40,583 bases of DNA from a virus. The stretch is taken from IMG/VR virus record IMGVR_UViG_3300045453_000096, positions 1 to 40,583 of that record; one strand, written 5' to 3'. Position numbers and translations under genes: made by a program. The notes under the pieces were generated by a model. That model made no database searches and was not told the DNA's origin. It saw only the letters and a program-made list of their open reading frames with translations. Shown in pieces: positions 5,125 to 39,878 of the stretch (its first letter is position 1; each line of letters begins with the position of its first letter).

Positions 5125-5529
5125 TTACGCCCCCACGCGCTTCCTCTGCGGTGCAACACTCGTTGGTGCTGCAACTCCCTGTTGTCTCGGCTCGGCAAAC
5201 GCCCGGATCATGTCGAGCAGCCGTTCTTGTTCTGTTGGCGGAAGGTTTTCCAGCATCGCGATCAGCCCGCGCATGGGAGCGGTGATGCGGACGCTGTCGT
5301 TCAACAGCTCCTCCGGCTTGATCTGCAAGGCTTTCGCGTAAAGTTCCATCTGCGCGACCGTCATCTGATTAAGGCCGGTCTCGTGCCGCGCGACGCTCTG
5401 ATGCTTCTGGTTGGTGAGGTCGGCCAGCTTCTCCAGGCTCAAGCCGCGCTCCTGCCGCCAGTGCCGGAGGCGGTTGGGGTAGTGCTTTTGAGGTTCGGCC
5501 GGTCGGCGTCCACGCATGAGCGGGACCAT
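5125..5529 (-). CDS. CI-like XRE-family repressor without protease domain
   Basis: 134 residues from Met at 5529 (a second Met lies at 5517; neither has a strong SD, and an AGGCG is the best candidate). Residues about 17-75 are a classic XRE/lambda-repressor HTH: NRLRHWRQERGLSLEKLADL, then TNQKHQSVARHETG and an ALQIKPEELL closing helix. The C-terminal 55 residues hold one helical segment (GLIAMLENLPPTEQERLLDM) and a disordered tail. There is no LexA-like S24 peptidase domain, so RecA-stimulated self-cleavage is not expected. It lies between two clusters of an identical palindromic operator, which strongly supports its being the lysogeny repressor. Operator 4 overlaps its start codon. Confidence 0.85.
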   Translation of the reverse strand: MVPLMRGRRPAEPQKHYPNRLRHWRQERGLSLEKLADLTNQKHQSVARHETGLNQMTVAQMELYAKALQIKPEELLNDSVRITAPMRGLIAMLENLPPTEQERLLDMIRAFAEPRQQGVAAPTSVAPQRKRVGA

Positions 5530-5544
5530 CACGCCTAGCGTGAA
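5528..5544. promoter_or_regulatory. Operator 4 (right cluster, overlaps repressor start)
   Basis: ATCACGCCTAGCGTGAA; one mismatch to the consensus in the left half-site. It covers two bases of the repressor ATG and its ribosome-binding region, so binding could give negative autoregulation. Confidence 0.7.
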
Positions 5545-5595
5545 GGGGGGCGAGGCCCGATCCGGTGAAATTGCGGGATGCACGTTGCCACGATA

Positions 5596-5612
5596 TTCAC
5601 GCTTGACGTGAA
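5596..5612. promoter_or_regulatory. Operator 5 (right cluster)
   Basis: TTCACGCTTGACGTGAA with perfect half-sites. It overlaps the predicted PR -35, so occupancy would block the rightward early promoter. Confidence 0.8.
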
Positions 5613-5631
5613 ATTCAGCAACCGCTACAGG
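5603..5631 (+). promoter_or_regulatory. Candidate rightward early promoter PR
   Basis: TTGACG (5603-5608), 17-bp spacer, TACAGG (5626-5631). The -35 lies inside operator 5, and the Cro-like gene begins 28 bp downstream of the -10. A repressor promoter in the opposite direction (minus-strand TTGCTG 5622-5617 with weak GAATAT 17 bp on) is possible but poor. Confidence 0.6.
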
Positions 5632-5659
5632 TTGTGTCCCCTCAAGAAACGACCGGCAC

Positions 5660-5935
5660 ATGTTGACGCTGGCAGCCTGGCTAAAGTCCGAAGACGTAAC
5701 GAACGCCGAGTTCGCGCGCCGCATGACGGCCCGGCTGGGCAAGCGGGTCAGCGACCAGAACGTCTGGCGCTGGACCCTGCCCGCCAGCCATCCCGAGTAT
5801 TCGATCCCCGAGCCCGACAACCTCGTCGCGATCTACTTCGAGACGGCCAAGCAGGTGAAGGTCGAGGTCTGGTACGGCCACATGATCAACCAGCGCGCCC
5901 GGCGGGTGAGCCCGGCGCGCAGGCGGGCGGCATGA
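5660..5935 (+). CDS. Cro-like HTH regulator
   Basis: 91 residues. Residues about 3-65 read as a compact lambda-type HTH: LAAWLKSEDVTNAEFARRM, KRVSDQNVWRWTLP, then PEPDNLVAIYFETAKQVKVE. The basic C-terminus (RARRVSPARRR) would help DNA contact. It is the first gene read from PR, divergent from the repressor, which is the classic Cro position; it may bind the same 17-bp operators. The start at 5660 lacks a strong SD. Its stop overlaps the next gene (ATGA at 5932-5935). Confidence 0.75.
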   Translation: MLTLAAWLKSEDVTNAEFARRMTARLGKRVSDQNVWRWTLPASHPEYSIPEPDNLVAIYFETAKQVKVEVWYGHMINQRARRVSPARRRAA

Positions 5936-6192
5936 GCATGGCCGGGGCCAAGCTCTGGACGCCGGCAGAGGAAGCCCGGCTGCAGCTTTGGGCAGTCACC
6001 CGCCGGCGCCGCTGCTGCATCGACTTCGCGCGCGCGACCGGCCGCAGCGAGCGGTCGGTGCGCATGAAGCTGCATCGTCTCGAAACCAATCCCGTAACCC
6101 GGCCGCCCGACTGCGTCGTCGCGGCCAACACCGACGCGGCGGCCCCGCGTGTGCCGACGGCTCGCGGGCCGGGCGACACGTCAGACAGCTAG
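5932..6192 (+). CDS. SANT/Myb-like HTH DNA-binding protein
   Basis: 86 residues starting MSMAGAKLWTPAEEARLQLW. Residues 7-52 fit a SANT/Myb three-helix unit: Trp followed by an acidic helix, a middle helix (CCIDFARATGRS) and a basic recognition helix (ERSVRMKLHRLE). A general resemblance to the N-terminal fold of GcrA-type regulators is visible. The C-terminal 35 residues are low complexity. It is coupled to the Cro-like gene by ATGA and ends just before a strong terminator. Probable delayed-early regulator; an antitermination role is worth testing but is not shown by the sequence. Confidence 0.6.
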   Translation: MSMAGAKLWTPAEEARLQLWAVTRRRRCCIDFARATGRSERSVRMKLHRLETNPVTRPPDCVVAANTDAAAPRVPTARGPGDTSDS

Positions 6193-6240
6193 CCCGGCCC
6201 CGCCGCTGCCTATGGTTAGCGGCGGGCGCCGGGTCTTTTT
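6193..6240 (+). terminator. Strong intrinsic terminator (tR-like)
   Basis: Outer stem CCCGGC (6193-6198) with GCCGGG (6228-6233), inner stem CCGCCGCT (6200-6207) with AGCGGCGG (6218-6225), 10-nt loop, followed by TCTTTTTCTC. It begins right after the stop of the SANT-like gene and separates the two regulators from the replication genes. Confidence 0.85.
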
Positions 6241-6255
6241 CTCGGGGAGTTGAAG

Positions 6256-6558
6256 ATGGATCAGGGTCGTCGCGAAGAACTTTTCCAGCGCTATGCCGCC
6301 GCCTGCCACGCCATGCAGGCGGGCGTCGCCATGATGATGAACCACGACCAGCACGCGACGCAACCAAAGCATCTGCGTGTCGGCGTCAACAGCGCCATGG
6401 TCGAGCATGGCGCGCTCGCCAATCTGCTGATGGCGAAGGGCATCGTGACGGAGGAAGAATACTTCGTCGCGCTCTGCGAGGGCATGGAAGCCGAGGTTGC
6501 GAAGTACGAGGCGGAGTGCAGCCGCGTGCTCGGTGGCGCGGTGGTGAAGCTGGTCTGA
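6256..6558 (+). CDS. Hypothetical helical protein (100 aa)
   Basis: ATG at 6256 preceded by GGGGAG with 6-nt spacing. An all-helical protein (MDQGRREELFQRYAAACHAM, then a Met-rich stretch AGVAMMMNH). The sequence NLLMAKGIVTEEEYFVALCE resembles the helical hairpin seen in many small phage proteins where a G-(I/V)-(I/V)-T-x-E-E-Y turn recurs. No function recognised. First gene downstream of the terminator. Confidence 0.65.
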   Translation: MDQGRREELFQRYAAACHAMQAGVAMMMNHDQHATQPKHLRVGVNSAMVEHGALANLLMAKGIVTEEEYFVALCEGMEAEVAKYEAECSRVLGGAVVKLV

Positions 6559-6929
6559 TGAACGACTGGTCGCCCGACCTGATCGCGCTGGCGCACTCGG
6601 CCCTTGAGGTCGAGACGCTGCCCGATGCCGAGGGCAATGCGCGACCGGCTTCGGAAGACGGGCCCATTGTCGAATGGAACTCCGTCGTCGACATGGCGAC
6701 GTTCGACCAGCTGCCGCCGATGGCGCGCTATGCGCTCAACTACGCCGACCAGTCCTACAGCGCCTCGCAGGTGGTGTTGTTCGCGGTCGCCAAGAACATG
6801 CCGCCGACCGAGTGCGCAGCCCGACTTGTGACGACGATCGCCAAGCCGTCGAAGGAGAAGCCCGACCCGTACCACTGGCGCGACCTGCCTCTGTTGGCGG
6901 CCCGAACCTCAACAAGGGTCGCGGCATGA
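6558..6929 (+). CDS. Hypothetical protein (123 aa)
   Basis: Starts MNDWSPDLIALAHSALEVET, coupled to the upstream gene by TGATG. Helical and acidic at the N-terminus; the middle (FDQLPPMARYALNYADQSY) and the C-terminal half (SASQVVLFAVAKNMPPTECA) look like a folded helical domain. The C-terminal PYHWRDLPLLA precedes the primase start (ATGA overlap). Tight coupling to primase suggests a replication accessory role; family unknown. Confidence 0.6.
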   Translation: MNDWSPDLIALAHSALEVETLPDAEGNARPASEDGPIVEWNSVVDMATFDQLPPMARYALNYADQSYSASQVVLFAVAKNMPPTECAARLVTTIAKPSKEKPDPYHWRDLPLLAARTSTRVAA

Positions 6930-8158
6930 CGGACGCGCGCAAGCTCTCGCGCGATGCGGTCGCCCGCCTGTCGGAGCGGCTGCGCGACGAGTGCGAGCGG
7001 CTGGCGCGCGACCTGCTGCCGGGCGGCGAGGCGGCGCGTGGGCTCTATCGCGCGGCGCGGCGCGAGGCGGGCGGACCGGGCGACAGCCTCACGGTCTATC
7101 TGCGCGGGCCCAAGCAGGGGAAGTGGAAGCACTTCGGCGGCGACATCGGCGGGCAGAACCACGGCGACATGCTCGACCTGATCATGGCGACGCAGCAGCT
7201 AGACAAGGCGGGCGCGCATGCCTGGGCGCTGCGGTGGCTGGGCCTCGCGCCCGGCGCCGTCGAGTTCCGCCGCACGCCCGAGGAAGAAGCGCTGGCCCGC
7301 AAGAACGCAGCCGAGGTGCGGCGCGCGGCGATGGAGAAGCTGGACCGCCGGCGCAAGAGCGACCGCACGATGTGGTTCACCTGCCCGCCGATCAGCCTCG
7401 ACAATCCGGCCGGTCAATACATGGCGGGCAGGATCCCGGGCTTCGCCAAACTCCTCGAGCTGGATTGGGGGCTGCATGCGCTGCGGTTCCATCACGCGCT
7501 GGAGCATCCCTATGCGGAGGGCCGCACCTTCCCGGCGATGCTGGCATGGGTGCAGTTTCCCAACGGCAAGATAGCCACGCTGCACCGCTATTACCTGCGG
7601 CAGGTCGAGGGCGGCTGGGACGTGCTGCGCATGAAGCGCGACGGGCTCGACGGCAAGCTGTCGACCTGCGCCGTCGAGGGTGGGTTCGTGCCCGTGTGGC
7701 GCGGCTGTCGCGTCAACACCGACAAACAGGGCAGGGAGACGGGCGAGATCGTGGCGGGTTGGCCATGGAGCGACGAGCGCGCCGGGCCCGAGGTCGTGGT
7801 GTGCGAGGGCGTCGAGGATGCCGCGAGCCTCGCCGTCGCCAAGCCCGAGCGACGGTTCGCGGCGGCACTCAGCCTGCCGAACTTCATGCAGATCAAGCTG
7901 CCCGATTGGGCGCGGCGCGTCGTGTGGTTTGCCGACGACGACGGCGACAACCAGCAGACGCCGAAGCTGATGGACCGGGCGCTTGAGCGCCTGGAGGAGC
8001 AAGGCCGCGAGGTCGCGATCGCCAGACCCCCGGCCGGATGGAAGGACGCGAACGCGGCGCTTCGCGGTGGCGAAGCGCAGGCGGGCGACAGCGCCAGCAG
8101 CGAAGCGATGGCGCGAGAGCCCGCACCCCCGACCCAAGAAGAAGGAGCCGCGACATGA
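6926..8158 (+). CDS. Toprim-domain DNA primase
   Basis: 410 residues; start ATG overlaps the preceding stop. It would synthesise RNA primers for phage replication. An N-terminal region (about 20-130) contains the GKWKHFGGDIGGQNHGDMLD stretch typical of phage/plasmid primases of the Toprim_3/DUF7146 kind. A middle domain (150-280) and a C-terminal Toprim fold follow: acidic Glu294 in VVVCEGVED, Asp337 and Asp339 in WFADDDGD, and a closing KDANAALRG motif, as in DnaG-like phage enzymes. No N-terminal CHC2 zinc finger is visible. The helicase gene at 11091 would be its partner. The C-terminal 40 residues are disordered. Confidence 0.85.
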   Translation: MTDARKLSRDAVARLSERLRDECERLARDLLPGGEAARGLYRAARREAGGPGDSLTVYLRGPKQGKWKHFGGDIGGQNHGDMLDLIMATQQLDKAGAHAWALRWLGLAPGAVEFRRTPEEEALARKNAAEVRRAAMEKLDRRRKSDRTMWFTCPPISLDNPAGQYMAGRIPGFAKLLELDWGLHALRFHHALEHPYAEGRTFPAMLAWVQFPNGKIATLHRYYLRQVEGGWDVLRMKRDGLDGKLSTCAVEGGFVPVWRGCRVNTDKQGRETGEIVAGWPWSDERAGPEVVVCEGVEDAASLAVAKPERRFAAALSLPNFMQIKLPDWARRVVWFADDDGDNQQTPKLMDRALERLEEQGREVAIARPPAGWKDANAALRGGEAQAGDSASSEAMAREPAPPTQEEGAAT

Positions 8159-10690: not shown

Positions 10691-11091
10691 TGGTCGCCTA
10701 CTCGTTCCAGCAGCAGTTCATCGAGCCGATCCTGTCGGGCCGGAAGAACGGCACGATCCGCGCGAACGGCAAGCGTCGTCACGCCCGGCCGGGCGAGGAG
10801 CTGCAGCTTTACGTCGGCATGCGCACCAAGTCGTGCCGTCTAGTCGCGAACTCGCAGTGCCAGGGCGTCGAGCCGATCCGCATCCTGTTCAGCAAAGACG
10901 GGCATCACGACACGATCAGGATCAGGAAGGCGACCATTCGAGGCTACGCCCTTGATGCCTTCGCAATGACCGATGGCTTCGGAAGCTGGGTTGAAATGCG
11001 TGCTTTCTGGCGCGAGCACCATCCCGGCGTTGATCTCTTCGAGGGTGTGTGGGTGCGCTGGGCGTGCCTGTCGGGGGGCATGCTGATCTGA
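10690..11091 (+). CDS. ASCH-domain-like protein
   Basis: 133 residues; the start at 10690 is chosen for the TGATG overlap. The N-terminal half fits the ASCH (PUA-like) pattern: YSFQQQFIEPILSGRKNGTI, then a basic RKxxTIR-type patch, ARPGEELQLYVGMRTK and a Cys-containing strand. ASCH proteins bind RNA or modified nucleosides, and some hydrolyse them. The basic pocket residues (Lys, Arg and Thr of GRKNGTIR) are present. It sits directly before the helicase gene. Confidence 0.65.
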   Translation: MVAYSFQQQFIEPILSGRKNGTIRANGKRRHARPGEELQLYVGMRTKSCRLVANSQCQGVEPIRILFSKDGHHDTIRIRKATIRGYALDAFAMTDGFGSWVEMRAFWREHHPGVDLFEGVWVRWACLSGGMLI

Positions 11092-13001
11092 TGCCCGACG
11101 GTAGCGTACCTCCGAAGAAGAAGGGCGGGCCGGAAGCGCTAGGCGACGCGCTCGACCAGGCCGAGACGCGGCCGCGTCGTCGCGCGGGCAAGGCGGGCGG
11201 TGACGAACCGCCGAGGGAGCCGCCCCGCGAACCGCCGCGCGAGCCGCCCGACGACGAGGGCGACGACGAGGGGTGGTTCCGCGTTCCGAAGAATTGCCCG
11301 GTGCAGCCGCTCGGCATCGACGGCAAGGAGTTCCTGTTCATCGACGCGAACCGGCAGTTCGTGAAGATGCACCATCGCGACTTCGGCGGGCACGGGTTGT
11401 CGGCGCTGTTCGGTGACTATCAGGAGTATCTGGATGGCGCGTGGCCGCGCACCAATGCGCGCGGCGAGGACAGCGGGCTCGACAAGGATCGGGCGGCGCG
11501 CTCGCTGATCGCGGCGTGCGGCCGCAAGGGCGTGTTCGACAGCGACAACAGGATCCGTGGCGTTGGCGCCTGGACCGATGCCGACGGCCGCCTGATCTGG
11601 CACCTGGGCGACGAGGTGCTGGTCGTTGACACCGACGGGCAGCACACCGTTCATCCCATCGGCACGATTGGCGACCACGTCTACCCGCAGGGCGTGACCC
11701 AGGTGTGGCCCGAGCGCAGCAAGGGCGACCCGGTCAAGGCGGTCGGCGAGTTCTACGAGCTGCTGCAGACATGGGCGTGGAAGCGGGGCGCGCTCGACGC
11801 GCGCCTGCAGTTGGGCTGGATCGGCTGCGCGCTGATCGGCGGTGCCCTCAAGTGGCGGCCGGCGGTGTGGGCGACGGGCGGCCAGGGCACGGGCAAGTCG
11901 ACGTTGCACGATGCCGTGCTGAACCCGGTGCTGGGGGGCACGGCTTCGGTGGTGCAGACCGCCGACGCGACCGGCCCCGGCCTCTATCAGGCACTCAAGA
12001 ACCGCAGCACGCCGGTCGTGTTCGACGAACTCGAGCCCAACCCCGAGGACCGGCATCGGGTCGAGACCACCATCAAGCTCGCCAAGCTGTCGTCGTCGGG
12101 CGCGCGCATCGTGCGCGGCACGTCGGAGGGGCAGAGCCGGGAGTTCGTCGCGCGCGCGGCGTTCCTGTTCTCGTCGATCCTGATCCCGCGGCTGGAGCCC
12201 GAGCTCGCCATGCGCACCTGCGTGCTGGACCTCAACGCGCTGGGCGACCGCAAGGAACCGTCGATCTCGACGCGCGACATGCTCGACACGGGCGCGCTGC
12301 TGCGCTGGGTGCTGGTCGAGCGCTGGAAGTACTGGCCGCTCCGCCTGGAGAAGTGGCGACAGGCGCTGAGGCAGCGCGGCTTCACGGCGCGCGTGGCCGA
12401 CACGTGGGGCAGCCTGCTCGCGATGGCGGATCATCTGCTGAGCCCCGAGGCCTCGGCCGAGGAAACGCCGACCGATACGCTCGACGAGTGGGTCGACCAG
12501 CTCAAGCCGCACCTGATGGCTCTCGTCGAGGCGGCGGGTTCGGACCATGCCCGCCTGCTGCAGAACCTGCTGACGACGACGGTTGATCCCTACCAGAAGG
12601 GCAAGCGCTGGCCGCTGTCGACGATCATGGCCGCCGCCTGCAACCGTCGCCGCAAGTCGGAAGGAGAGGAGGATGGGCTTGAGCCTGATGCAGCGGCGGC
12701 CGGCCTCGAAGCGCTCGGCATCAAGATCGCCAGCTTCAAGCGGCCGAAGTCCGACGATGCGCCCGACGATTATCAGCCGGAGTACATCGACGCCATCGCC
12801 ATCGCGAGCAACCACACCGAACTGAACAAGCTGCTGCGCGAGACGAAGTGGCGCAACGGCGTCTACACGCAGACCCTGCTGCGCATCCCGGGCGCGTGGT
12901 CGGCGCAGCAGCGCATCGCCCGCCACAAAATCCAGTGCGCGATGATCCCGCTCGATCTCGTGCTGCCGCGCGAGCAGGGCGGCAGCGATCTGTTGACTTA
13001 G
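11091..13001 (+). CDS. AAA+ replicative helicase / primase-helicase-like ATPase
   Basis: 636 residues from Met at 11091 (TGATG overlap). Residues 1-60 are basic then contain the tandem PPRE repeat and an acidic stretch, so are disordered. The ATPase core has Walker A GGQGTGKST at 263-271 (Lys269), Walker B VVFDELEP (Asp312, Glu313) and a downstream sensor/arginine segment (LEPELAMRTCVLDL). This resembles the DUF927/D5-like phage and plasmid helicases that work with a Toprim primase. The C-terminal 100 residues may be a winged-helix DNA-binding region. Most likely unwinds phage DNA at the fork; origin melting is possible. Confidence 0.75.
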   Translation: MPDGSVPPKKKGGPEALGDALDQAETRPRRRAGKAGGDEPPREPPREPPREPPDDEGDDEGWFRVPKNCPVQPLGIDGKEFLFIDANRQFVKMHHRDFGGHGLSALFGDYQEYLDGAWPRTNARGEDSGLDKDRAARSLIAACGRKGVFDSDNRIRGVGAWTDADGRLIWHLGDEVLVVDTDGQHTVHPIGTIGDHVYPQGVTQVWPERSKGDPVKAVGEFYELLQTWAWKRGALDARLQLGWIGCALIGGALKWRPAVWATGGQGTGKSTLHDAVLNPVLGGTASVVQTADATGPGLYQALKNRSTPVVFDELEPNPEDRHRVETTIKLAKLSSSGARIVRGTSEGQSREFVARAAFLFSSILIPRLEPELAMRTCVLDLNALGDRKEPSISTRDMLDTGALLRWVLVERWKYWPLRLEKWRQALRQRGFTARVADTWGSLLAMADHLLSPEASAEETPTDTLDEWVDQLKPHLMALVEAAGSDHARLLQNLLTTTVDPYQKGKRWPLSTIMAAACNRRRKSEGEEDGLEPDAAAAGLEALGIKIASFKRPKSDDAPDDYQPEYIDAIAIASNHTELNKLLRETKWRNGVYTQTLLRIPGAWSAQQRIARHKIQCAMIPLDLVLPREQGGSDLLT

Positions 13002-14645: not shown

Positions 14646-15064
14646 GACGTCGGCTCCTCGTTCGTGGCGGGTGGCGTGCCGGGTCGGCTGGCATCGCTCC
14701 ACCGTCTTGCGTCCAATATGCGCGCGTCGAGCTCGGCGGCCACGGCGGGCGACAGTCCAGGCGGCGGGCGCTGGTCGGCCCAGCCGCGCAGCAACCATCG
14801 GTCGGCCGCGCGGCGGAGCATGAACTCGGCCACGGCGGGCGGCACGTTCCGCCGCCCGTCGACCAGCCGCCGCAGGTTGTCGCCTCGGAGCGCGCTGTCA
14901 TCGGGCAGCCGGGCATACCATGCCGGGCCGTACAGGAAGGCGGCGAGGGTCGCGAAGTCCTGCGGCGTGAAGTCGGGCGGCGGTGTCATCGGCCGCAGCA
15001 ATAGCCCGCCCGGGCGCGAGGGGAAAGGCGGGACGATCACTCGCCCCGCCTCGCGCGCGGTCAT
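14642..15064 (-). CDS. Hypothetical protein (140 aa)
   Basis: Starts MTAREAGRVIVPPFPSRPGG, coupled to its neighbours by ATGA on both sides. Pro-rich N-terminus, then a helical body (FTPQDFATLAAFLYGPAWYA; NVPPAVAEFMLRRAADRWLL; LSPAVAAELDARILDARRW). The repeated helix pairs and basic Arg patches resemble small replication/partition accessory proteins, but no family is recognised. Confidence 0.55.
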   Translation of the reverse strand: MTAREAGRVIVPPFPSRPGGLLLRPMTPPPDFTPQDFATLAAFLYGPAWYARLPDDSALRGDNLRRLVDGRRNVPPAVAEFMLRRAADRWLLRGWADQRPPPGLSPAVAAELDARILDARRWSDASRPGTPPATNEEPTS

Positions 15065-15630
15065 GCGTACCAACTCCGGTACTGTGGCCTGCCGTCCCAA
15101 AGGCTGGCGCTGCGGTAGCTCTCGAAGCTGATGCCGTTCCCGTAGCGGGTTCGGTGTCGCGTCGGCTCGCCCGTGAAGCTGTCCGGCACGGCCACGACGT
15201 AGTCGGCCATGGAATTGCCGGTGCTCTTGTCGGTCGAGCGCTTGGCGATGGGCCGCACCTCGATGGTGCGCGGCCCGATGATGGCCGTTACCTGATAGAA
15301 GTCGACGTTGGTCTGTTCGTAGCCCCATGACGACACGAGCACGTTGCCCACGGCGTAGGTGTGCGGCTTCGCGGCATCGGCCTTGCGCGCCGCGCGGCTC
15401 GCCGCCGTGCGCCGTCGGCCGTCGATGAACTCGGCAAGGTGCTTCGCGCGCCGCTCCTCGCTCTGGAAGGTGTGATGGAAGGCGGGCTTCTGTGCCTTGC
15501 CAGCAAAGCCGATGCTGGCGGGCTGGCCGCGCGCCGTCGTGTAGAAGAACACGGCGGCGTCGGTGCCGTCGGCATCTTGCGCGGCTGCCTTGTCTGGAAT
15601 GTAGAACTCGCGTCGGTGCTCCATGCGCAT
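15061..15630 (-). CDS. Mobile-element protein with SWGYEQTNVDFYQV motif, unknown function
   Basis: 189 residues starting MRMEHRREFYIPD (Met at 15630; a second in-frame Met at 15624). The N-terminal part has a strand-rich region (AAVFFYTTARGQPASIGFAG) and a basic helix. The core is VGNVLVSSWGYEQTNVDFYQ followed by VTAIIGPRTIEVRPI. From memory, this SWGY-(E/D)-QTN-(V/I)-D-(F/Y)-(Y/F) block recurs in plasmid and phage proteins encoded near ArdC-type genes and has no established function. The C-terminus looks Tyr/Ser-rich. A repeated 13-nt leader lies directly before the start codon, as for two other genes of this cassette. Confidence 0.65.
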   Translation of the reverse strand: MRMEHRREFYIPDKAAAQDADGTDAAVFFYTTARGQPASIGFAGKAQKPAFHHTFQSEERRAKHLAEFIDGRRRTAASRAARKADAAKPHTYAVGNVLVSSWGYEQTNVDFYQVTAIIGPRTIEVRPIAKRSTDKSTGNSMADYVVAVPDSFTGEPTRHRTRYGNGISFESYRSASLWDGRPQYRSWYA

Positions 15631-15643
15631 GGTCGGTACAACC
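15631..15643 (-). promoter_or_regulatory. Leader motif copy A (GGTTGTACCGACC)
   Basis: On the minus strand GGTTGTACCGACC ends directly at the ATG of the 15061-15630 gene. The same 13-mer precedes the ATGs at 17030 and (GGTTGAACCGACC) at 17621. It can fold GGT-N7-ACC and contains the AGG of the ribosome-binding region. The upstream stem copy seen in B and C is not clear here. Confidence 0.6.
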
Positions 15644-15737: not shown

Positions 15738-17030
15738 CTAGAGGAGGCTGCGGAAGAACGCGGCCAGCCGCTCGCGCCACGTGCGGCGCACGATGATGGC
15801 GGGCACGGCGACCGCCTCGGGCTCAGCCTCGACCGGCACGGCTTCGAGCGCGGGCGCTTCCGGCGCGGGCTCGTCGGCCGCCTGCGGCTCTGCCGGGACC
15901 GGCTCGGCTTCCGGCGCTTCCGGCTCGTGCGCGGCGGGAGCGTCGCCAACCGTCGGCATCAGCAGGCCCCAGCGCTGCGCCTTGGCATCGGAGAAGCAGG
16001 CCGGGCTGCAGTGCGGCGTGTCCTTCGCGAACTCGACCACGAGCACGTCGCCCATGCGCGCCATGTCGCGAAGGTACTTCGCGTTGAAGTAGGCATAGGG
16101 CACGGCCGATGCCTGGGGATGGACGCCCGCCGCGTCGAGTGCCACGGACACCGCCGCGCCCCGCTTGCCCTTGGGCTTCGTGCCGTCGGCCGCCATGTCG
16201 GCCGCCTCGAACACGGACCGCGCCGCGAGCGAGAAGGCGGGCAGGCGCTCCAGTGGGATGGTGCGCAGGTAGTCGGGAAACGTGGCGTCGACAGCCGAGG
16301 CCTTGAAGGTCTGGCCGCCGTGCACCTTGATCGTGAGCGCCACCACGCCCTTGACCGTCTTGGCGTTGACAGTCACGTCGCGCGGCTTGCCGCCGATCTC
16401 CTTCACGAGGGCGCGGACGGTGTCGGCCTTCATGATGAAGCCCGGTCCGACTTTGCCGCCGGTCCACTTGGCGGCGATCTCCTGCGCATGCAGGCGGTGC
16501 CCGTCGACGGCGACCAACTGCAGCCGATCCTTGGCGACCGGCGCGAAGTAGACGCCGCAGAGATAGATGCGGGCCGTGTCGGTCGACATGGCGCGGCGCG
16601 TCCACTCCAAGGCTTCGCGCAAGGCGACGGCGGCGACCGTCACAGTCCCTGTGTTAGCGGACACCGCGCCCGGCGCGGTGCTCGGGATAAACGTCTTGCA
16701 GTCCGCCGCGCGCGTGACCGGCGCGGGCTTCGGAGCGACCGGCGCAGCCGGGCGCGAGGCGGCGGGCTTCGCAGCGCGCGGCGCTTCCGCCGTCGTGCTC
16801 TTGCCGGTCTGAGCGACGTTGAACACGCGCCACTTGAAGCCGCTCGCGCCTTCGAGCGCGACGCCTTCCTCGCCGCGACGGACCGGAGCCCCGGTCCCCT
16901 TCCACTGCTGAATGGTCGCCCACACGGGCTGCGTGTAGCGCCGCGACTGCATGGCCTGATCCAGTGCGTCGACGTTCGTCGCCTTGATCGTCTGGCCGGT
17001 GATAGCGTTCGTGTGCGTGTGCTTTGACAT
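15738..17030 (-). CDS. Fusion of ArdC-type N domain with DnaN-like sliding-clamp domains
   Basis: 430 residues; Met at 17030 follows leader motif B. Residues about 8-76 match the N-terminal (ssDNA-binding) domain of ArdC antirestriction proteins: NA-x-TG start, YTQPVWATIQQWKGTGAPVR, RRGEEGVAL, WRVFNVAQT. Residues 77-128 are an Ala/Pro linker. Residues 129-260 resemble domain II of the bacterial beta clamp: ALREALEWTRRAM, TARIYLCGVYF, LQLVAVDGHRLH and the closing ATFPDYLRTIP. Residues 262-362 resemble domain III: PYAYFNAKYLRDM, LVVEFAK, WGLLMPT. Clamp domain I is missing and the ArdC-like domain takes its place. An acidic Pro/Ala/Glu tail (363-412) ends in a basic amphipathic helix (RRTWRERLAAFFRSLL). 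Probable role: processivity or recruitment factor acting on phage DNA with host polymerase, or an inhibitor of the host clamp. Confidence 0.75.
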   Translation of the reverse strand: MSKHTHTNAITGQTIKATNVDALDQAMQSRRYTQPVWATIQQWKGTGAPVRRGEEGVALEGASGFKWRVFNVAQTGKSTTAEAPRAAKPAASRPAAPVAPKPAPVTRAADCKTFIPSTAPGAVSANTGTVTVAAVALREALEWTRRAMSTDTARIYLCGVYFAPVAKDRLQLVAVDGHRLHAQEIAAKWTGGKVGPGFIMKADTVRALVKEIGGKPRDVTVNAKTVKGVVALTIKVHGGQTFKASAVDATFPDYLRTIPLERLPAFSLAARSVFEAADMAADGTKPKGKRGAAVSVALDAAGVHPQASAVPYAYFNAKYLRDMARMGDVLVVEFAKDTPHCSPACFSDAKAQRWGLLMPTVGDAPAAHEPEAPEAEPVPAEPQAADEPAPEAPALEAVPVEAEPEAVAVPAIIVRRTWRERLAAFFRSLL

Positions 17031-17071
17031 GGTCGGTACAACCTTCTGATAGAGCCGGTCGGAACAACCGG
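17031..17071 (-). promoter_or_regulatory. Leader motif copy B (double hairpin)
   Basis: Minus strand: CCGGTTGTTCCGACCGG (17071-17055; stem CCGGT/ACCGG, 7-nt loop), 11-nt spacer, then GGTTGTACCGACC (17043-17031) ending at the ATG of the ArdC-clamp gene. The two units share GGTTGT(T/A)CCGACC. Confidence 0.7.
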
Positions 17072-17090: not shown

Positions 17091-17140
17091 GGCGCTGGCC
17101 TAGGCCGCCTCACGTGAGCGAGGCGGCAAAGGGCAGCGTC
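17091..17140 (-). other. Nested 3-prime hairpin, copy 2
   Basis: Starts inside the stop codon of the 17139-17366 gene. Outer stem GGCGCTG (17091-17097) with CAGCGTC (17134-17140, one G-U); inner stem GCCGCCTC (17104-17111) with GAGGCGGC (17120-17127); 8-nt loop. Single-stranded parts (minus: GCCCTTTGC and CTAGGCCAGCGC) are shared with copy 3, while the inner stem differs by compensating changes. Confidence 0.65.
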
Positions 17141-17388: not shown

Positions 17389-17442
17389 GATGCGCTGGCC
17401 TAGACGCCCTCACCTGTGCGAGGGCGCAAAGGGCAGCGCATC
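17389..17442 (-). other. Nested 3-prime hairpin, copy 3
   Basis: Starts at the stop codon of the 17442-17621 gene. Outer stem GATGCGCTG (17389-17397) with CAGCGCATC (17434-17442); inner stem CGCCCTC (17405-17411) with GAGGGCG (17420-17426); 8-nt loop. Very similar to copy 2 outside the stems. Confidence 0.65.
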
Positions 17443-17621: not shown

Positions 17622-17662
17622 GGTCGGTTCAACCTTTCGCGTGGGCCGGTCGGAACAACCGG
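17622..17662 (-). promoter_or_regulatory. Leader motif copy C (double hairpin)
   Basis: Minus strand: CCGGTTGTTCCGACCGG (17662-17646), 11-nt spacer, then GGTTGAACCGACC (17634-17622) directly before the ATG. With the promoter below, the predicted mRNA 5-prime end would be the first hairpin itself. Confidence 0.7.
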
Positions 17663-28964: not shown

Positions 28965-29536
28965 TGGAAGCGACCTTCGTCCCCTTGAAACAGTTTCACG
29001 TGGAACGGCTGGAGCCCCGGGTGCAGGCCTCGCAGCGCCTGTTCAAGCTCTCCCTCACGCCCGAAGCCATCGCGGCCATGGTGGCGGGGCCGGCGCAGGC
29101 CCTGCTGGTCGACGGCGAGCCCGTCGCGGCGGCGGGCCTGATCGACGAAAAGGAGGGGAGGGCGCGTGCCTGGGCGCTGATCGGCGAGCGGGATCTGTCG
29201 CCTGCCTTGTGGGGGCAGATCGTCGCCGCCATGCGCGCAGGTATCGAGCAGGCGTTGCATCCGCAGACCGGCTGGGCCCAGCGCGTCTATGCCGAGACCG
29301 TCTACGACTGGCGCGAAGGTCACCGGCTGCTGCTGCACCTCGGCCTTTCGTTCGAGGGCATGAACCGGGGCGCGTTTCCGGGCGGGCGCCACGGCGTCAC
29401 CTATGCCCGGGTGCGCAGCGACGTGCCTCCGTTGCCGGTACGCTGCAGCGCCACCATGCGCATCGTCGAGAGGTGTCTGTGGGAAGACGCCATGAACGCG
29501 GACGTGCCCTATGCGGCGCGCAGGGAGGCGGCATGA
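28964..29536 (+). CDS. GNAT-fold protein, gp13-position
   Basis: 190 residues, coupled by TGATG. Contains an acetyltransferase-like core: ALLVDGEPVAAAGLIDEKEG, RAWALIGERDLSPALWGQIV and the late YDWREGHRLLLHLGLSFEG typical of GNAT C-terminal strands. It occupies the place of T7 gp13 (an internal virion protein), so it may be structural or an assembly factor that kept the GNAT fold. Catalytic activity is not established. Confidence 0.6.
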   Translation: MEATFVPLKQFHVERLEPRVQASQRLFKLSLTPEAIAAMVAGPAQALLVDGEPVAAAGLIDEKEGRARAWALIGERDLSPALWGQIVAAMRAGIEQALHPQTGWAQRVYAETVYDWREGHRLLLHLGLSFEGMNRGAFPGGRHGVTYARVRSDVPPLPVRCSATMRIVERCLWEDAMNADVPYAARREAA

Positions 29537-30456
29537 TCGTCCGCCCCAGCACCGTGGCCGAAATCGAGACGGCGTCGACCTTCTCCGATCTGATCGCGGA
29601 GTATGCCGCCGAATGCCACATCGCGGGCATGCCGCCGCCGCAGGCGCGCATGGAGCAGTATCGCGATCTCGAGGCCAAGGGCTTCTTGTCCGTCTTCGCC
29701 GCCGTCGTCGAGGGCGAGCTGGTCGGCTTCATCAGCGTGCTTTGTGCGCCGCTGCCGCACTACAGTTTGTCCGGCGCAGTCAGCGAAAGCTTCTTCGTCG
29801 CCAAGGCGCATCGCGGCACCCTGGCGGGGCTCAAGCTGCTGGCCGCCGCCGAGCAGAAGGCTGCCGAATTGGGCTCGCCGGGTCTGCTGGTCAGCGCGCC
29901 ATTCGAGGGCAAGCTGTTCGAGCTGCTGCCCAAGCTGGGCTACGCCGAGACGAACCGCGTGTTTTTCAAGCAGGTGGGGCCGATGATGCAGCGCGACATC
30001 GTCGTGCCGTCGATGACGCCGCGCATCCCGCGCATGAGCATCCCGGGCATCGACAAGGTGCGCCGTCTCGAAAGCGAGCGCGCGGCGCTGCCGCAGGTGC
30101 CGCTGCGCACCCAGCACCTGCTGCACGGCGGCATGTACGCGCGCACGGTCTATGTGCCGGCGGGCACCGTGATCACCGGCACGCTGATCAAGGTCGCCAC
30201 GGTGCTGATCGTCGATGGCGACGCCATGCTCTATGTCGACGCCGACGAGCCGCTCCACTGCACCGGCTACAACGTCATGCCCGCCAGCGCCGGCCGCAAG
30301 CAGGCCTTCTGGATGAAAGGCAACACCGCGCTGACGATGATCTTCCCGACCGCCGCCGCCACCGTCGAGCAGGCCGAGCGGGAGTTCACCGACGAATTCG
30401 ACCTGCTGGCATCGCGGCGCGACGGTCTTAACGAAATCCACGTGACGGGGGAATGA
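29533..30456 (+). CDS. GNAT-cupin fusion protein
   Basis: 307 residues, ATGA coupled. Residues 1-150 are a GNAT domain: strand pair FAAVVEGELVGFISVL, the acetyl-CoA loop region VAKAHRGTLAGLKLLA, and LLPKLGYAETNRVFFKQVG. Residues about 195-285 form a cupin-like barrel: HLLHGGMYARTVYVPAGTVI, KVATVLIVDGDAMLYVDADE and GRKQAFWMKGNTALTMIFP. The C-terminal 25 residues are acidic/helical. Lies in the internal-core-protein block; may modify or stabilise a virion component or act in the infected cell. Function of the pairing is unknown. Confidence 0.65.
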   Translation: MIVRPSTVAEIETASTFSDLIAEYAAECHIAGMPPPQARMEQYRDLEAKGFLSVFAAVVEGELVGFISVLCAPLPHYSLSGAVSESFFVAKAHRGTLAGLKLLAAAEQKAAELGSPGLLVSAPFEGKLFELLPKLGYAETNRVFFKQVGPMMQRDIVVPSMTPRIPRMSIPGIDKVRRLESERAALPQVPLRTQHLLHGGMYARTVYVPAGTVITGTLIKVATVLIVDGDAMLYVDADEPLHCTGYNVMPASAGRKQAFWMKGNTALTMIFPTAAATVEQAEREFTDEFDLLASRRDGLNEIHVTGE

Positions 30457-39233: not shown

Positions 39234-39878
39234 ATGCTCGACGTCGCCCTGTTGCGCCAGATGATGCCCGCCGCCGGCGCGCGGCTCGATCCGCACCTGC
39301 CGTTCATCATCCCGGCGCTGTCGGCCGCGTCGATCCTGCAGCCCATGCGCTTCGCGGCCTTCATGGCCCAGCTCGCGCACGAGAGCGGCGAGTATCGCTG
39401 GATGGAGGAGATCGCCGACGGCAGCGCCTACGAGGGCCGCGCCGACCTCGGCAACGTGCATCCCGGCGACGGGCGGCGCTTCAAGGGCCACGGGCCGATC
39501 CAGATCACCGGCCGCACCAACCACGAGGCCTGCGGTCGCGCGCTCGGCATCGACCTGCTGGAGCAGCCGACGCTGATCTGCGAGCCGCGCTGGGCCACGG
39601 CCTCGGCCTGCTGGTTCTGGAACAGCAAGCGCCTGTCGCTGCTGGCCGATCGCGACTGGTTCCTCGCCATCACGCGCATCGTCAACGGCGGCTTCAACGG
39701 CCTCGAGGACCGGCTGCGCTACTGGCGCCGCAACCGCGAGCTGCTGGGCCTGCCGCCGGTCGACGTCGACGGCGAGACGGAGGCCATCAAGGAGTTTCAA
39801 GCCGAGCGCGGGCTCGTGGTCGACGGCCGTGTTGGCCGCCGCACGCTCGACGCGCTGCAGGAGAGCGTTGCCGCCTGA
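39234..39878 (+). CDS. Endolysin: GH19 chitinase-like lysozyme with peptidoglycan-binding domain
   Basis: 214 residues. Hydrolyses peptidoglycan for lysis. GH19 core: AFMAQLAHESGEYRWMEEIA with catalytic-type Glu50 (HES), YEGRADLGN, then the signature FKGHGPIQITGRTNH, and the WFWNSKRL region. The C-terminal residues about 180-210 (IKEFQAERGLVVDGRVGRRT, then LDAL) form a short PG_binding_1-like repeat. No signal peptide is visible, so it would need the adjacent holin to reach the cell wall. Confidence 0.9.
   Translation: MLDVALLRQMMPAAGARLDPHLPFIIPALSAASILQPMRFAAFMAQLAHESGEYRWMEEIADGSAYEGRADLGNVHPGDGRRFKGHGPIQITGRTNHEACGRALGIDLLEQPTLICEPRWATASACWFWNSKRLSLLADRDWFLAITRIVNGGFNGLEDRLRYWRRNRELLGLPPVDVDGETEAIKEFQAERGLVVDGRVGRRTLDALQESVAA

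Follow-up and report, generated by a model that had tools for sequence, protein, structure and literature searches.

We analysed a 40.6 kb virus record (IMGVR_UViG_3300045453_000096), referred to here as the window, over its whole length. An open reading frame on the minus strand (15738-17030, with its ATG at 17030) encodes a protein of 430 aa, P0001, in which an ArdC-N domain is fused to domains II and III of a sliding clamp. The corresponding fusion protein of a related record, L007, is P0002. The parts of the fusion gene and the neighbouring features are given below.

15738..17030, minus strand: gene for the ArdC-N / clamp II-III fusion, 430 codons and a stop codon (Pfam, PHROG, homologue P0002 in L007)
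17031..17069, minus strand: leader of the fusion gene, with two direct copies of GGTTGTWCCGACC abutting the ATG (identity with the relative about 95%)
16806..17018, minus strand: ArdC-N (Rad4 BHD-like) ssDNA-binding-type domain, residues 5-75, with the VFNVAQ squiggle motif (PF08401; 6i89/6sna; PMC7213743)
16647..16805, minus strand: fast-evolving linker rich in Ala and Pro, residues 76-128, free to change (33% identity with the relative)
16254..16646, minus strand: clamp domain II, residues 129-259, holding the greater part of subsite I in the pocket for clamp-binding motifs
15945..16253, minus strand: clamp domain III, residues 260-362, shortened, with FN..YL and MPT of the pocket kept
16098..16133, minus strand: domain III junction, residues ~300-311, with ~17 residues fewer than in three-domain clamps
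15795..15944, minus strand: acidic tail (net charge -13) rich in Pro and Ala, residues 363-412
15741..15794, minus strand: basic C-terminal helix, residues 413-430, with RTWxxRLxAxF common to the relative
15061..15630, minus strand: next gene downstream of the fusion, with the same leader motif (phrog_37844)
15631-15643, 17031-17043, 17057-17069, 17622-17634 and 17648-17660, minus strand: copies of GGTTGTWCCGACC
6674..8158, plus strand: phage TOPRIM primase
11049..13001, plus strand: phage primase/helicase-type P-loop protein

The clamp half of P0001 is recognised by profile searches and by structure prediction. DNA_pol3_beta_2 (PF02767) matches residues 135-253 above the Pfam cut-off (E 1.8e-7), PHROG 947, a phage processivity factor family, aligns to residues 127-359 (E 5.9e-10), and a phmmer search of the PDB returned beta clamps only, the best at E 5e-12 over residues 131-282. 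Neither domain I (PF00712) nor domain III (PF02768) gave a Pfam match in P0001 even at E<=10, and the control phage clamps P0006 and P0007 matched all three clamp Pfam domains. Because PF02768 gives no match, the assignment of domain III rests on PHROG 947, AlphaFold2 and Foldseek. The AlphaFold2 model, made from an alignment 56 rows deep, has pLDDT values mostly of 80-97 across residues 129-362. Its top Foldseek matches in the PDB are all DnaN (best 6ap4_H, E 1.3e-13), and PCNA folds rank beneath DnaN, among the weaker viral fold matches. The original prediction of clamp domains II and III is borne out by the Pfam domain II match, PHROG 947, the fold of residues 129-362 and the DnaN matches, and every motif that it named (ARIYLCGVYF, VAVDGHRLH, ATFPDYLRTIP, FNAKYLRDM and WGLLMPT) is found in the translation. 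The acidic tail and the C-terminal helix that it described are likewise present, the helix being placed at residues 418-429. As an FtsA-like membrane anchor this helix made a weak case, with a hydrophobic moment of 0.41/0.34 against 0.62.

The N-terminal half is an ArdC-N domain. PF08401 (ArdcN) matches residues 5-63 with E 2.4e-9 and 37.9 bits, against a curated cut-off of 22.6. A profile built from two ordinary ArdC proteins and the ArdC-N domains of both fusions matches the solved ArdC structures 6i89 and 6sna at E 2.7e-13, with the VFNxxQ squiggle aligned. These two results confirm the earlier claim that ArdC-N stands where clamp domain I would be. The AlphaFold2 pLDDT for residues 1-75 is low (40-61) because merely two sequences cover the region. 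ArdC-N is an ssDNA-binding domain in the solved R388 ArdC, whose structure paper also describes the squiggle (PMC7213743), and is a common N-terminal header (PMC5512222). P0001 shares its N-terminal ArdC-N and VFNxxQ motif with ArdC of plasmids pSa and R388 and other PF08401 proteins, but the first helices are absent from it, as is most of the long beta3-beta4 hairpin. It also lacks the C-terminal metalloprotease domain of ArdC, the partner being instead a clamp core; Pfam finds no zincin-like metalloprotease or other effector domain in P0001. Brevundimonas jumbo phage proteins annotated as DNA primase give a weak N-terminal match of ArdC-N type (E 0.1-0.8), and there the partner is a primase rather than a clamp.

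The relative, L007 (IMGVR_UViG_3300002461_001210, 41.2 kb), is colinear with the window and has a portal protein 90% identical to that of the window. It carries the fusion gene as a single ORF of 442 aa, 58-62% identical to P0001 from end to end, with 77% identity in ArdC-N. A frameshift or assembly error joining two genes is ruled out by this full-length colinear homologue on an independent contig. Ka/Ks between P0001 and P0002 is 0.24 for ArdC-N, 0.53 for clamp domain II and 0.40 for clamp domain III; by this measure all of these domains are under purifying selection. Upstream of the ATG, ~90 bases show about 95% identity with L007, against about 74% for the DNA of the gene. Judged by these comparisons, the fusion is a maintained gene and no artefact. 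P0001 and P0002 are the two known members. Searches of viral contigs with the whole protein, ArdC-N, domain III and a clamp pattern found no further fusion, nor did those of plasmids and a phage collection, and genome contigs held just two ordinary ArdC proteins. The 783 sampled bacterial genomes also gave no fusion, an emptiness that shows little with a two-row profile run without a positive control.

We compared domain III of the fusions with that of ring-forming clamps. In the E. coli ring, domain I of one chain meets domain III of the next, through I272 and L273 together with the acidic residues E298, E300, E301, E303 and E304 (PMC11139829). None of the acidic ring-interface residues is present in P0001 or P0002, and in a MAFFT L-INS-i alignment the I272/L273 positions are occupied by D/G in both. 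From the strand after the helix to the FN motif there are 18 residues in both fusions, against 30-39 (median 35) in 54 viral three-domain clamps. The AlphaFold2 model of domain III places a helix at residues 270-282 and strands at 293-299, 302-305 and 311-316, which leaves the part before the FN..YL half with one strand fewer than in full clamps. The lost strand may be either of two neighbours, since two alignments put the gap differently; at the level of the alignments, the shortening and the missing acids hold whichever placement is taken. PCNA also has a two-domain chain, but in P0001 the interface strand is missing. The loss of both halves of the standard interface leaves the proposed trimer with no evident surface on which to close.

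The pocket for clamp-binding motifs (CBMs) presents a different picture. Scored on the residue list of PMC11139829, with the ambiguous V344 omitted, 12 of 17 pocket residues in P0001 and 15 of 17 in P0002 are identical to E. coli. P0001 carries the substitutions T172V, V247T, M364T and R365V. Both fusions thus retain the CBM-binding pocket, with binding predicted from the conserved residues, and the originally proposed tie to host replication factors is sensible. Overall, P0001 shares with DnaN, including the three-domain phage clamps of PHROG 947, the domain II-III fold and the pocket motifs DGHR, FPD, FN..YL and MP. Unlike DnaN, it lacks domain I, one strand of domain III and the ring-interface residues, and has an additional ArdC-N, linker, acidic tail and helix. 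It is also basic where DnaN is acidic, the net charge of the clamp part being +10 and +8 in the two fusions against a median of -7 in 85 three-domain clamps. The anatomy of the fusion, with the ring-closing parts lost, the pocket kept and ArdC-N added, is well supported.

A second group of phage proteins has a comparable anatomy. The phrog_3007 profile matches P0001 at E 1.5e-7 over residues 153-262 only, and PHROG 3007 groups phage proteins about 170-193 aa long (for example L006:5938-6519, L108:3947-4459 and L109:3944-4480), which we call mini-clamps. They consist of domain II and just the second half of domain III. PF02767 matches five of the six mini-clamps tested and PHROG 947 all six, and a model of one (mean pLDDT 94.7) matches E. 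coli beta. A tblastn search with Bcep781 gp15 returned 245 phage records, 211 of them at >=80% query cover and a few of them full-length clamps. In 45 diverse mini-clamps the ring-interface positions are all absent, and the pocket positions have a mean entropy of 0.75 against 2.13 for the rest, a value as low being reached in none of 20,000 random draws. Their median net charge is +1, and both they and the fusions are more basic than three-domain clamps. Mini-clamps such as Bcep781 gp15, Shigella EP23 gp08 and that of Hafnia yong1 resemble P0001 in that domain I is gone and the CBM pocket is kept; they have lost the ring-interface half of domain III, which is shortened in P0001 too. They differ from it in being ~180 aa long, in having no ArdC-N and only the second half of domain III, and in forming a clade of their own. 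The PHROG name of the family, RusA-like Holliday junction resolvase, is wrong for these clamp fragments, and RefSeq phage records now repeat it; the annotators of Bcep781 labelled gp15 "DNA Pol III b subunit fragment".

In a phylogenetic tree the mini-clamps form one clade with a support of 0.96 (0.92 with domain II only). The fusion pair lies outside it, among three-domain phage clamps and next to L065 (0.79/0.90). Because the pair groups with three-domain clamps, apart from the mini-clamp clade, ring closure seems to have been lost with the pocket kept at least twice, in separate lineages. The L065 protein (IMGVR_UViG_3300046011_007875, 5218-6699, plus strand), to which the pair is most closely related in the tree, is a phage clamp with all three domains and an N-terminal extension of ~100 aa. 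Another clamp, in L050 (IMGVR_UViG_3300048598_000494, ORF around 5750-6726, plus strand; PF02767 at E 1e-28, PF02768 at E 2e-14), has no recognisable domain I and a different ~75-aa N-terminus in that place, and keeps the ring-interface strand of domain III.

The genomic settings of these genes vary. The fusion gene sits in a small minus-strand cassette between the early and late modules, away from the primase and helicase genes, together with short genes that have the GGTTGTWCCGACC leader in common. In the lambdoid Hafnia phage yong1 (L109, 3627-6215) the gene order is cII, mini-clamp, O-like, P-like, and in both BcepC6B and Acinetobacter phage 4316 the mini-clamp adjoins phage PolA. The mini-clamps of Bcep781, EP23 and Salmonella W5 are lone genes amid structural genes. 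The TOPRIM primase and the P-loop primase/helicase-type protein of the window agree with the original prediction that the phage encodes primase and helicase. Its further statement that a polymerase is lacking also held: searches with positive controls found neither a family A, B or C polymerase nor an SSB-family protein in the window or L007, both of which may be incomplete records.

Our preferred reading, which we hold tentatively, is that P0001 acts as a monomeric, ringless dock that is anchored to ssDNA and recruits host proteins bearing CBMs. The ArdC-N domain would hold ssDNA, as expected from its family, and the flexible linker would present clamp domains II-III. Going by its conserved residues, the pocket could then bind the CBMs of host proteins such as Pol III alpha, clamp-loader delta or translesion polymerases. 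Because the ring cannot close, P0001 would neither slide nor require loading but would act as a fixed dock, bringing host polymerase or clamp loader to the phage ssDNA generated by the phage primase and helicase. We infer the binding of ssDNA and of CBMs, the monomeric state and the direction of recruitment. By analogy, the dock is suggested by the mini-clamps, which despite separate descent lost the same parts and have the pocket as their most conserved region, and by the position of some of them in replication cassettes. Also in its favour are the monomeric E. coli beta mutant, which still binds delta though it gives no processivity (PMC11139829), the basic charge of the clamp part, the purifying selection on the folded domains and the lack of polymerase A/B/C and SSB matches in the window and L007. 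Against it, the minus-strand cassette and the isolated mini-clamps would suit a role in host takeover too, and the P0001 pocket itself carries the substitutions listed above. The small membership of two, a lost strand whose identity shifts with the alignment and the low pLDDT of the ArdC-N part of the model also weigh against it. More generally, we consider it somewhat probable that phages have at least twice independently, in the mini-clamps and in the ArdC-N fusion, stripped the sliding clamp to a ringless monomeric CBM-docking module that serves as a dock or a sink and not as a ring.

The main rival to the dock is a decoy, a ringless pocket protein that sequesters host CBM proteins, chiefly delta and Pol III, so that host replication or repair is stopped or redirected, while ArdC-N merely concentrates P0001 at forks. 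We regard this as unlikely, though a serious contender. By analogy, the closest experimental model for a ringless pocket protein is the monomeric I272A/L273A clamp of E. coli, which has ~50-fold the affinity of the dimer for delta and is unable to tether Pol III for processive synthesis, as a decoy would have it; Twort Gp168 is moreover a precedent for phage attack on the host clamp (PMC11139829). The separate minus-strand cassette of the fusion gene and the isolated mini-clamps of Bcep781, EP23 and Salmonella W5 also suit a decoy. However, a decoy would not need to be anchored to ssDNA, the mini-clamps of yong1, BcepC6B and Acinetobacter phage 4316 lie inside replication cassettes, and a phage that has no polymerase depends on an active host Pol III. 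It is quite improbable that P0001 is an ssDNA-protecting or anti-restriction protein whose clamp half just positions it at forks via host CBM proteins. ArdC does protect ssDNA and counter restriction (PMC7213743), but P0001 has no metalloprotease or other effector domain, and a phage delivers dsDNA whereas the role of ArdC-N has been argued for conjugative ssDNA (PMC5512222).

The closed six-domain trimeric ring of PCNA type that had been proposed at first is unsupported, and we consider it very improbable. Each chain does have two clamp domains, PCNA models occur among the weaker viral fold matches, and E. coli beta* (domains II-III) is reportedly an oligomeric processivity factor. However, domain III of both known members lacks ~17 residues, a strand, the acidic ion-pair residues and the L273-type hydrophobic contact; the top PDB matches are all DnaN; and a 53-residue linker and 75-residue domain occupy the place of the partner face. 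A functionless, decaying clamp remnant is hardly credible. The several pocket substitutions and the shortened domain III of P0001 would fit decay, but the ORF is kept at full length with 58-62% identity, Ka/Ks is below 1 in every folded domain, and the leader is about 95% identical in the relative.

These results qualify the view of the fusion as a new class of phage clamp. It is clamp-derived, but is probably no longer a clamp, and clamp derivatives without domain I are already common in phages under a wrong label. The E. coli beta* protein, a domain II-III form, is a precedent. A literature search, largely of open-access papers, turned up no account of an ArdC-clamp fusion or of mini-clamps without a ring, and the survey in which the partner domains of ArdC-N were defined names neither a clamp nor DnaN (PMC5512222). 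The two jobs of a clamp, encircling DNA and holding partners, are normally inseparable, and in the fusions and mini-clamps the holding job has apparently been kept alone. If true, this would show how a phage can take hold of the host replisome, or block it, with no need of a clamp loader, and would provide natural ringless clamps for studies of CBM binding. It would also correct the misleading resolvase label on many phage records, including those of the laboratory phages Bas77-Bas81.

The window contains five copies of GGTTGTWCCGACC where 0.06 are expected, lying immediately in front of the start codons of three minus-strand genes and paired at two of them. L007 also has five copies, and the motif is a possible operator or translational control site. 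Two 47-nt intergenic repeats (17092-17138 and 17392-17438, minus strand) are 85% identical and consist of a G+C-rich inverted repeat followed by CTAGGCCAGCGC; L007 has one copy at 6302-6323. No tRNA was found in the window. Among the other plus-strand genes, a late gene (29209-30456) encodes a GNAT acetyltransferase domain, and another (39234-39878) a GH19 chitinase-type endolysin with a peptidoglycan-binding domain.
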